Source: Bacillota bacterium
GTDB lineage: Bacteria > Bacillota > Sulfobacillia > JAJZYS01 > JAJYTV01
Assembly (NCBI GenBank): GCA_021799275.1
Contig: JAJZAT010000029.1
Location: 1 to 38,511, forward strand
DNA length: 38,511 bases
Direction: 5' to 3'
The position numbers and the translations under genes are program-made. The first letter of the stretch is position 1. Every line of letters starts with the position of its first letter. Below the pieces are notes generated by a model. It made no database searches. It was not told the origin of the DNA and saw nothing but the letters and a program-made list of their open reading frames with translations. Shown here one piece after another: positions 6,304 to 35,781 of this stretch.

Positions 6304-6308
6304 GGACA

Positions 6309-6343
6309 CGAGAGCTCCGGACCACGGAGGCCCGGAGCTCTCG
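6309..6343. terminator. Hairpin between convergent genes
   Basis: CGAGAGCTCCGG (6309-6320) and CCGGAGCTCTCG (6332-6343) form a perfect 12-bp stem with an 11-base loop. It lies between two convergent stop codons, so it probably ends both transcripts. There is no T-tract on either side. Confidence 0.7.
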
Positions 6344-6355
6344 CGCCATCCCGGC

Positions 6356-33270: not shown

Positions 33271-33334
33271 GCCGCCACCTCCAGCATCTTCTGGATCCTC
33301 TGGAGCCGTCCGGGGGAACAGTGCACGCCACCCT

Positions 33335-33363
33335 CGCCTATGATAGCCTGTTTGCCATAGGCG
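33335..33363. promoter_or_regulatory. Inverted repeat between divergent mccA-like and MBL genes
   Basis: CGCCTATG (33335-33342) and CATAGGCG (33356-33363) are perfect inverted repeats with a 13-base spacer. Beyond one mismatch they extend further by CCC and GGG. The site lies in the 120-base divergent intergenic space and could be an operator for either gene. Confidence 0.4.
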
Positions 33364-33371
33364 TGGGACGA

Positions 33372-33390
33372 GCAAGAAGGGGGAACTTGC
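33372..33390 (+). promoter_or_regulatory. Small hairpin abutting the MBL start codon
   Basis: GCAAG (33372-33376) pairs with CTTGC (33386-33390). The GTG start is the next base, and the nine-base loop AAGGGGGAA holds the ribosome binding site. The stem is short, so this may be chance. Confidence 0.25.
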
Positions 33391-34059
33391 GTGCACGTGA
33401 CCTGGTATGGCCAGGCAGCCTTCTTCTTGGAGGCGCCGGAAGGAAAGGTTTTCATCGACCCGTTCGGCGAGATGCCGGCACGTCCCGGCATGGTCTTCGA
33501 CTACCCGCCGTTGCCGCGACTTTCGCCCGACCTCGGGCTGATCACCCACGAGCACTTCGACCATAGTGGCCTTGAGGCGCTCAACGAACCGAAGATGACC
33601 ATTCGCTCGACCGCCGGGCGCTTCGATACGCCGATCGGCGTCGTGCTGGCGATCGCCGGCGAGCACGACGACGTTGCGGGCACGAAGCGGGGTCCGAACA
33701 CCATCTACCGCTTCCAGCTGGGCGGCTTGCGCGTTGCCCACTTCGGCGACTTCGGGCAGAAGGAGCTGCGGGCGGAGCAGTTCGACCAAATCGGTCCCGT
33801 CGATCTCCTCTTCGTGCCGGTCGGGGCCGGGCCGACGATCGGCCCGGAGGCGGCCAGAGCGATCGCGCGGGCGCTCGACGCCCGCTACGTGGTGCCGATG
33901 CACTACCGCACGCCCGCCGTCAACTTCCTGGAACCGCTCGAGCCCTTCCTGGCTCTCTGGCAGGACGTGCGAAGGCTGGACGCCCCGGGCTTCGACACGC
34001 GGGACCTGCCGGAGATCGGCCCGGTGTGCGTTGTGCCCAAGGCGCCGCTCAAGTCGTAA
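33391..34059 (+). CDS. Metallo-beta-lactamase-fold hydrolase (UlaG/YtkL-like)
   Basis: A 222-residue MBL-fold protein. HVTWYGQAAFFLEAPEGKVFIDPFGE forms the first sheet. The metal motif is THEHFDHSG (HxHxDH, residues 52-60), followed by GLRVAHFGDFGQ and the last His in YVVPMHYRTP. Proteins of this branch are metal-dependent hydrolases acting on lactones, phosphoesters or phosphodiesters; the substrate is unknown. GTG 33391 has AAGGGGG seven bases ahead inside a small hairpin loop. It diverges from the mccA-like gene across an inverted repeat and lies 86 bases before pstS. Confidence 0.87.
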   Translation: MHVTWYGQAAFFLEAPEGKVFIDPFGEMPARPGMVFDYPPLPRLSPDLGLITHEHFDHSGLEALNEPKMTIRSTAGRFDTPIGVVLAIAGEHDDVAGTKRGPNTIYRFQLGGLRVAHFGDFGQKELRAEQFDQIGPVDLLFVPVGAGPTIGPEAARAIARALDARYVVPMHYRTPAVNFLEPLEPFLALWQDVRRLDAPGFDTRDLPEIGPVCVVPKAPLKS

Positions 34060-34070
34060 CGCAACAAAGT

Positions 34071-34103
34071 CTTAGGACAAACTTCCCGCGCCCTTAAGCG
34101 GAC
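34071..34103 (+). promoter_or_regulatory. Pho-box-like 11-bp-period direct repeats before pstS
   Basis: CTTAGGAC (34071), CTTCCCGC (34082) and CTTAAGCG (34093) are spaced exactly 11 bases apart, each with three spacer bases. That is the arrangement of PhoB/PhoP/SphR binding sites, tandem half-sites of about 8 bp with an 11-bp period. TACGCT at 34109 could act as the -10 element. The position directly ahead of a phosphate-binding-protein gene supports the reading. Confidence 0.55.
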
Positions 34104-34145
34104 ACTCCTACGCTTCAGCTGAACCGAGCTGAAAGGAGTGTCCGC
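34098..34145 (+). promoter_or_regulatory. Nested inverted repeat containing the pstS ribosome binding site
   Basis: GCGGACACTCC (34098-34108) pairs perfectly with GGAGTGTCCGC (34135-34145), which ends exactly at the ATG and contains the GGAG ribosome binding site. Inside it TTCAGCT (34114-34120) pairs perfectly with AGCTGAA (34127-34133). As RNA this 11+7-bp structure would hide the start region completely. It overlaps the last Pho-box-like repeat, so a role as DNA site is also possible. Confidence 0.55.
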
Positions 34146-35207
34146 ATGTTCCCTGGCAGGAGGCTCTGGGCTGGCGCCACGCTCGCTCTCGTGGCTACCA
34201 TCGGCCTAGCCGGCTCCGCGGCCGCGGGTTCGCTGCAGATTACGGAGACCGGTTCTTCCCTGCTCTTCCCGCTCTTTCAGGAGTGGGCGCCGGTGTATCA
34301 GCACGTGACCGGGGTCGAGATCACCCCGCAGTCGACTGGGTCGGGCACCGGAATTTCGGACGCCGAGAGCGCGACGGTCAACATCGGGGCGTCGGACGCC
34401 TACGTCTCCACCGCCCTCGAGGCGCAGCACCCGAACCTCCTGAACATCCCGCTCGCCGTCTCCGCGCAGCAGATCATGTACAACCTGCCCGGCCTCAACA
34501 AGAAGCACCTGCGCCTGAACGGTCCGGTTCTCGCCGGCATTTACGACGGCCAGATCAAGAACTGGGACGCGCCGCAGATCAGGCGGCTCAACCCCGGCGT
34601 CAAGCTGCCGAACCTGCCTGTGGTGCCGATCCACCGCGCGGACGGCTCCGGTGACACCTTCCTGTTCACGCAATACCTCAGCTTCACGACACCCAGCTGG
34701 AACCACGGTCCGAGCTTTGGCACATCGATCAGCTGGCCCACCGTCCCCGGCAGCGTCAGCGCTGAAGGCAACCAGGGCATGGTCCAAGAGCTCACCGGGT
34801 ACCCGGGCGGCGTGGCCTACGTCGGCATCTCCTGGCTGACGCCGGCGCTCAAGGCCGGACTCGGCGAGGCCGTCGTGGAGAACCGCGCCGGGCGGTTCCT
34901 GCTGCCGACGCCGCAGACCATCGCGGCGGCCGTCTCCGTGATGGCGAAGCACACGCCCAAGACCGAGCGCATCTCGCTGATCTTCTCACCGGGCAAGAAC
35001 TCCTACCCGATCATCAACTACGAGTACGCGATCGTCCCAAGGACGCAACCGAACGCGCAGGAGGCCGCTGCCGTCAAGAAGTTCCTGCTGTGGGCGGCCA
35101 ATCCCAAGCAGGGCAACTCGACGAAGTTCCTCACGCCGGTCCACTTCCTGCCGCTTCCCTCGAACGTGCTCCCCTTGAGCCTCAAGCAGATCAACGAAAT
35201 CAACTGA
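34146..35207 (+). CDS. pstS: PstS-type phosphate ABC transporter substrate-binding protein
   Basis: A 353-residue exported protein with a signal peptide (MFPGRRLWAGATLALVATIGLAGSAAAG). The phosphate-contacting motifs are ETGSSLLFPLFQEW (loop equivalent to GAGATFP), QSTGSGTGISD, and PIHRADGSGDTFLFTQYL with the Arg-Asp-Gly-Ser-Gly cluster; GVAYVGISW follows. No lipobox Cys is present, so the mature protein is secreted or held in the envelope another way. The permease and ATPase genes (pstCAB) are not adjacent, so it is an orphan here. The 5' region carries Pho-box-like repeats and an unusual inverted repeat, fitting phosphate-starvation control. A strong terminator follows. Confidence 0.87.
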   Translation: MFPGRRLWAGATLALVATIGLAGSAAAGSLQITETGSSLLFPLFQEWAPVYQHVTGVEITPQSTGSGTGISDAESATVNIGASDAYVSTALEAQHPNLLNIPLAVSAQQIMYNLPGLNKKHLRLNGPVLAGIYDGQIKNWDAPQIRRLNPGVKLPNLPVVPIHRADGSGDTFLFTQYLSFTTPSWNHGPSFGTSISWPTVPGSVSAEGNQGMVQELTGYPGGVAYVGISWLTPALKAGLGEAVVENRAGRFLLPTPQTIAAAVSVMAKHTPKTERISLIFSPGKNSYPIINYEYAIVPRTQPNAQEAAAVKKFLLWAANPKQGNSTKFLTPVHFLPLPSNVLPLSLKQINEIN

Positions 35208-35220
35208 CCGCGCTGCTTCT

Positions 35221-35258
35221 GGTAGGACCCGGCCGCCAAGGCCGGGTCCTACCGTTTT
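35221..35258 (+). terminator. Rho-independent terminator after pstS
   Basis: A perfect 14-bp stem, 35221-35234 with 35240-35253, surrounds the loop GCCAA. It is followed by G and then TTTT (35255-35258), 14 bases after the stop codon. Confidence 0.88.
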
Positions 35259-35278
35259 GCTCGTGTCGGTGCGAGTCG

Positions 35279-35313
35279 TTGCTTTGATTGCGAGCGCGTG
35301 TATAATTGATGCT
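35279..35313 (+). promoter_or_regulatory. Promoter of the marR-type gene (consensus -10)
   Basis: TATAAT at 35301-35306 is a perfect -10 box. TTGCTT at 35279-35284 is a -35 candidate with 16-base spacing. The predicted transcription start falls at about 35313-35314, on the start codon itself. TTGCTT and AAGCAA (35319-35324) flank the -10 as an inverted pair, possibly an autoregulatory operator. Confidence 0.65.
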
Positions 35314-35781
35314 ATGCTAAGCAAGAGTGATGCCCTTCCGACCGAAGTTCACGCCGTGTTGCGGGCCTACATGGACGGCATCGTCCTGGCCGAGCCCATG
35401 CAGCTCAAAGTGTGGAAGACGGCCGGCGTGACGCTGACCCAGCTGCGGATTCTGCGCGTGCTGCGCGAAGGTCCCTACTCGGCCAGCGAACTCGCCAGTC
35501 GTGCAGGTCTGTCGGCTCCATCGCTGACGCGCGTGCTCGACCGGCTCGAGGAACTCTCGCTGGTCGAGCGCGTGGCGGACCAGTCCGATCGTCGGCGCAT
35601 TTCGGTGCGCATCCTGCCGAAGGGAGAAACGCTTCTGGGTGACCAGAGCATCTGGCAGGGCACGATGTTCGTCGACGCGGTCCGCGCCATGTCGGCAGAC
35701 GAACGTCTCGAGTTCGTGCGCGCGATGCGCAACTTTGTCGTCAAGGTCCTCGACGCGCAGCACGACAAGGTCGAAGGCTAG
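35314..35781 (+). CDS. MarR-family transcriptional regulator
   Basis: A 155-residue winged-helix protein. The sequence VTLTQLRILRVLREGPYSASELASRAGLSAPSLTRVLDRLEELSLVERVADQSDRRRISVRILPKG is a textbook MarR domain with the DRR wing motif. Long helices at both ends form the dimer. ATG 35314 is chosen because the -10 box TATAAT sits only seven bases before it, implying a leaderless message; there is no ribosome binding site. The open frame could begin further upstream, but that part would lie in the promoter. The gene runs into an efflux pump 20 bases downstream, which it probably represses until a drug-like ligand binds. Confidence 0.87.
   Translation: MLSKSDALPTEVHAVLRAYMDGIVLAEPMQLKVWKTAGVTLTQLRILRVLREGPYSASELASRAGLSAPSLTRVLDRLEELSLVERVADQSDRRRISVRILPKGETLLGDQSIWQGTMFVDAVRAMSADERLEFVRAMRNFVVKVLDAQHDKVEG

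Follow-up and report, generated by a model that had tools for sequence, protein, structure and literature searches.

The phosphate-binding protein gene pstS of an uncultured member of the Bacillota is preceded by an inverted repeat at positions 34098-34145 that is real, rare and beyond chance. The gene lies in a 38,511-nt stretch of DNA (the whole stretch analysed, hereafter the window; contig C42 of a 3.1-Mb genome whose closest relatives are metagenome-assembled Bacillota). Because the left arms of the repeat are located 5' of the predicted transcription start, both arms would be present together only in RNA that arrives from upstream. We propose that the promoter of pstS depends on PhoP and also contains a fold-back insulator that silences read-through pstS RNA, and we judge the chances of this reading to be about even. 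The existence of read-through RNA, the exact start site and read-through silencing as the reason for the repeat's retention are all predicted.

The pstS locus and its promoter

The features discussed below are as follows (all on the plus strand).

33391-34059, plus: metallo-beta-lactamase fold hydrolase gene (Pfam Lactamase_B_3), co-directional with pstS and 5' of it
34069-34101, plus: Pho box of three 11-bp units (CTT at 34071, 34082 and 34093), recognized by exact 11-bp steps and by the distance to the -10 in related leaders
34098-34109, plus: outer left arm of the repeat (anti-Shine-Dalgarno), GCGGACACTCCT, between the last Pho unit and the -10, perfect over 12 bp
34109-34114, plus: -10 element TACGCT, placed by the spacing rule (TACACT or TATGCT in congeners)
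34114-34120, plus: inner left arm, just 5' of the predicted start, perfect over 7 bp
34121-34145, plus: predicted 5' UTR of the PhoP-driven mRNA, starting at ~34121, 7 nt after the -10 and placed from the -10 position
34127-34133, plus: inner right arm, perfect over 7 bp
34134-34145, plus: outer right arm, AGGAGTGTCCGC, consisting of the Shine-Dalgarno (SD) AGGAG and the spacer, invariant in the genus
34146-35207, plus: pstS, phosphate-binding protein (NCBIfam TIGR00975, 317 bits vs. a cut-off of 205)
35220-35254, plus: strong intrinsic terminator after pstS, found by terminator scan

The 86 bases from the upstream stop codon to the pstS ATG consist almost entirely of Pho box, promoter and ribosome binding site (RBS). 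The terminator scan gave no terminator-like site between the metallo-beta-lactamase gene and pstS, and the hydrolase gene is the presumed source of read-through RNA. In each of the six genus genomes (G000 to G005), the metallo-beta-lactamase gene adjoins pstS in the same direction and its stop codon is exactly 86 nt before the ATG. MarR and MFS genes are found 3' of pstS.

This gene is the second pstS of the genome and does not adjoin pstCAB. Its paralog on contig C28 heads pstS-pstC-pstA with phoP, phoR, pstB and phoU nearby. A Trans_reg_C response regulator on C28 adjoins a PnpS/PhoR-like kinase, PstB and PhoU, as in a PhoP-PhoR pair; the kinase scores below the TIGR02966 cut-off. In the phoPR cluster, a short PstS-like (PBP_like_2) ORF was also seen between the PhoR-like kinase and PstB (L126, 3463-4197, minus strand), possibly a third phosphate-binding or sensing protein, and beside it a permease-like ORF with weak PstA similarity.

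The original prediction had described three CTT units at exact 11-bp spacing as resembling a Pho box in front of a phosphate-binding protein gene. Both points held up: the protein is a true PstS, and the units were confirmed by their positions and by a comparison of 64 pstS leaders from the class and from Alicyclobacillus. The 11-nt steps between Pho units recur in relatives. Measured between a Pho unit and the -10 pattern TANN[C/A]T, the distance was 16 nt in 18 cases, 27 nt in 10 and 38 nt in 9; shuffled leaders would give 0.13 cases per distance. These counts are not independent, since some leaders enter at two or more distances and many leaders are related. The longer distances equal 16 nt plus one and two 11-bp turns, which places the Pho units on a fixed helical phase relative to the -10 (16 + 11n). 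Across the leaders compared this spacing pattern is unmistakable, and the reading of 34069-34101 as a Pho-box (PhoP/PhoB-type) promoter is confirmed comparatively. A pattern search for other Pho promoters in the genome gave the pstS paralog as the only exact match, and the remaining matches were not above a reversed control. The 16 + 11n nt rule may be used for finding Pho promoters in these uncultured lineages.

This rule fixes the -10 element (TACGCT) at 34109-34114 and predicts the start near 34121, so both left arms would be absent from the own-promoter mRNA and no hairpin would form there. It had been suggested that the repeat hides the RBS of pstS, and also that a start near 34121 would leave the outer left arm out of the RNA. 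The comparative -10 bears out the second statement and extends it to the inner left arm; the pstS mRNA itself is therefore unlikely to conceal its RBS, since the predicted start is downstream of both left arms.

Inverted repeat and its conservation

The inner stem is 7 bp as originally described, while the outer stem is perfect over 12 bp rather than 11. The last base of the outer right arm is the base before the ATG at 34146, so that the stem does enclose the whole RBS and stop at the start codon, as had been noted. The RNA of 34060-34180 is predicted to fold with a free energy of -50.4 kcal/mol; its shuffled versions average -37.8 (z -3.4). Opening of the SD would cost ~15 kcal/mol, a value reached by 0 of 500 upstream shuffles. 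As a background we used ~250 SD-bearing ORF starts from 20 stretches of this genome (~390 kb sampled) plus the window. SD-enclosing stems at these starts were at most 8 bp long, with the exception of a 12-bp stem at window position 6309. The latter is a 12-bp perfect inverted repeat on the minus strand (6306-6346, CGAGAGCTCCGG region) just after the stop codon of a minus-strand gene; its appearance is that of a terminator, lacking a distinct T run, over which a start was miscalled.

The pstS hairpin was also considered as a terminator of the upstream gene and rejected: no T run follows it and the scan finds no terminator there. A search of Rfam for a riboswitch or known leader gave no match at the gathering threshold, only chance miRNA hits (E ~3).

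The five congener leaders align with the window without gaps from the upstream stop codon to the ATG. Within the genus the right arm does not vary, in contrast to the left arm, which has diverged. Over the 48 hairpin bases, G004 matches the window exactly and G003 differs at one, at 72-77% identity of pstS fourfold sites; in G001 the last 32 bases match, at 58% identity of fourfold sites. The hairpin region is thus constrained, and promoter and RBS also account for part of the constraint. In G003, two pstS copies with near-identical leaders were found on contigs C64 and C45 (L036, L065), one leader being identical to that of G004; perhaps this assembly contains mixed strains.

Relative to the window, the left arm carries two to about five changes in G002, G001 and G005. 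Spacer-RBS pairing was compared with shuffled and random spacers in each genome, bearing in mind that the genus variants share ancestry: p was <0.0002 for G000, G003 and G004, ~0.001 for G002, 0.002-0.004 for G005 and 0.009 for G001. In the last three genomes, pairing of the spacer with the RBS block thus remains far stronger than for shuffled or random ones (p 0.0006-0.009). The SD opening cost of G001 is ordinary compared with upstream shuffles (p ~0.2). Fold prediction for read-through RNA gave a mean unpaired probability of AGGAG of 0.003-0.018 in all six leaders. In own-promoter RNA of the six leaders, the SD is predicted to be 0.18-0.60 unpaired, part of it being engaged with the beginning of the coding sequence. 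Dyad symmetry is not maintained across the genus; RNA pairing, with G-U pairs included, has largely been kept.

Covariation had been proposed as a check on the repeat. No compensatory double changes were found among the six genus leaders, and none could appear because the right arm is invariant.

Proposed read-through silencing and its alternatives

The original prediction left two choices, an RBS hidden in the mRNA or a repeat that must act as DNA. The second does not follow, since RNA reading through from upstream would hold both arms and the dyad symmetry is not kept. Silencing of read-through RNA is a third option, and the one we favour. Under phosphate starvation, the three 11-bp units would be occupied by PhoP, with RNA polymerase starting near 34121 and producing an mRNA with a leader of ~25 nt that lacks the left arms and has a comparatively open SD. 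RNA entering from the metallo-beta-lactamase gene would carry the promoter region as RNA; in it, the spacer at 34098-34109 would pair with AGGAGTGTCCGC and block ribosome binding. When phosphate is plentiful, pstS would then not be translated from read-through RNA. Three of the features expected of a read-through hairpin are seen or predicted at the locus: the SD is predicted to be enclosed in the upstream-extended RNA of all six congeners, the gene's own promoter (as judged by the predicted start) is located in or after the 5' arm, and a co-directional gene lies upstream with no terminator before the promoter.

The main rival is an inherited accident. The repeat could be without function, the RBS and the promoter each being constrained separately and the stem being a product of chance or of templated quasi-palindrome correction. 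Its perfect form would then date from the common ancestor of G000, G003 and G004, and related imperfect versions would have been inherited elsewhere. We regard this as possible, at clearly less than an even chance. It would account for the invariant right arm, the drifting left arm, the lack of compensatory changes and the presence of the perfect stem in the closest relatives only. Simulation of neutral spacer evolution from a perfect ancestor gave values of ~0.16 for G002, ~0.3 for G001 and ~0.05 for G005 (0.04-0.08 combined), a borderline result that is suggestive, not decisive, and does not clearly reject drift. The accident would on the other hand have to place a 12-bp stem exactly on the SD, unique among the ~250 starts, keep the spacers of the distant G002, G001 and G005 paired with the RBS far above random, and leave SD occlusion predicted in six of six leaders.

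A DNA operator is improbable. A dimeric repressor binding to the dyad over the -10 and the predicted start would impose a second transcriptional control, and the dyad does overlap both of these elements; its inner part TTCAGCT-N6-AGCTGAA is identical in four of the six genomes. However, only one half of the dyad is conserved: left-half substitutions and a one-base-shorter arm in G005 spoil the symmetry, the inner dyad is out of register in G002 and G005, and the palindrome has no second copy in the genome. The operator is disfavoured because the symmetry is not kept and a second copy is lacking.

Very improbable is a main start upstream of 34098 with the hairpin as a regulated leader (a thermosensor or a ligand or protein switch) on the pstS mRNA, a reading implied by the original prediction, which would suit the very stable fold of this strand but is opposed by the fixed -10 position across the class and in Alicyclobacillus, by the lack of a matching Rfam family and of any sigma-70-like promoter in 33300-35400, and by a stability (~39 kcal/mol) that is probably too high for a thermosensor.

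If the read-through insulator is real, a nutrient-starvation promoter is insulated translationally and its DNA is used twice, as promoter and as antisense arm. Some solution of this sort is needed in compact genomes that have 86-nt gaps and no terminators.

Other pstS leaders and known systems

RBS-hiding folds (SD opening cost with shuffle p ≤0.05) were detected in 11 of 50 other pstS leaders vs. 15 of 251 control gene starts (6%; Fisher p 0.001), the controls being taken from the window's genome only and having p-values close to uniform. After collapsing the leaders to 38 lineages by rough judgement, seven were positive (Fisher p ~0.015). A class-wide feature of pstS leaders is ruled out, most of them being without an SD-hiding fold. 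The orientation of the upstream gene did not separate leaders with a hairpin from those without; the ORF calls used for this were rough and are unreliable in GC-rich DNA.

Two hairpins outside the genus have 9-bp perfect arms. One is in G030 (L013, reverse strand, 1397-1454; GGTGCCCCC and GGGGGCACC), with the left arm 5' of the putative -10, and the other is in Alicyclobacillus fastidiosus (L058, 2748-2792; CCTGACCCC and GGGGTCAGG), with the left arm over the putative -10. The right arms of both reach or cover the SD, as in the window, and the two look independent in origin. In a sister genus (L055, L056, L060 and L066), the first Pho unit with its flank, CAAACGTTAACTC, is nearly complementary to the SD-to-start segment GAGGGTTACGTTTG. 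The pstS promoters of acidophilic Bacillota might repeatedly evolve RBS complementarity, which would make deafness of a starvation gene to read-through a general strategy; we consider this rather doubtful. A PstS with 47% identity to the bacterial one of the window is encoded at 3001-3999 of L064, a contig assigned in binning to a Nitrososphaerales archaeon; either transfer or misbinning would explain it.

A literature search of partial coverage found no description of such a hairpin for pstS. Dual transcriptional and translational control had been put forward as new, whereas the regulatory logic has precedents in phage T4 gene e and in B. subtilis sigG. The predicted insulator would follow a known kind of logic, met here for the first time at a gene of the Pho regulon.

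In T4 gene e, the late promoters are embedded in the DNA for the 5' half of the inhibitory stem; long transcripts started upstream are silent and short ones from the gene's own promoter are translated, as is also the case for soc, 49 and I-TevI (PMC3014915). At pstS, too, the promoter is predicted to coincide with DNA for the 5' arm of a stem that sequesters the RBS. The T4 arrangement serves early/late timing in a phage, whereas the one predicted here belongs to a nutrient-uptake gene on a chromosome, with a promoter of the PhoP type. For B. subtilis sigG (spoIIIG), a large RBS hairpin was proposed to block translation of spoIIG read-through RNA, and transcripts started at PsigG cannot form this hairpin (PMC5942855). 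Both sigG and pstS are chromosomal genes of Bacillota with an RBS hairpin that is absent (for pstS, by prediction) from own-promoter RNA; they differ in that sigG encodes a sporulation sigma factor with a forespore promoter, whereas pstS is a Pho-regulon transporter gene that follows an unrelated hydrolase gene. The promoter itself resembles the PHO boxes of PhoB and PhoP in having direct 11-nt repeat units 5' of the -10 (PMC4415409). Its three units are CTT(A/C)A-like, as compared with CTGTCAT in E. coli and GTTCACC in Streptomyces (PMC4415409).
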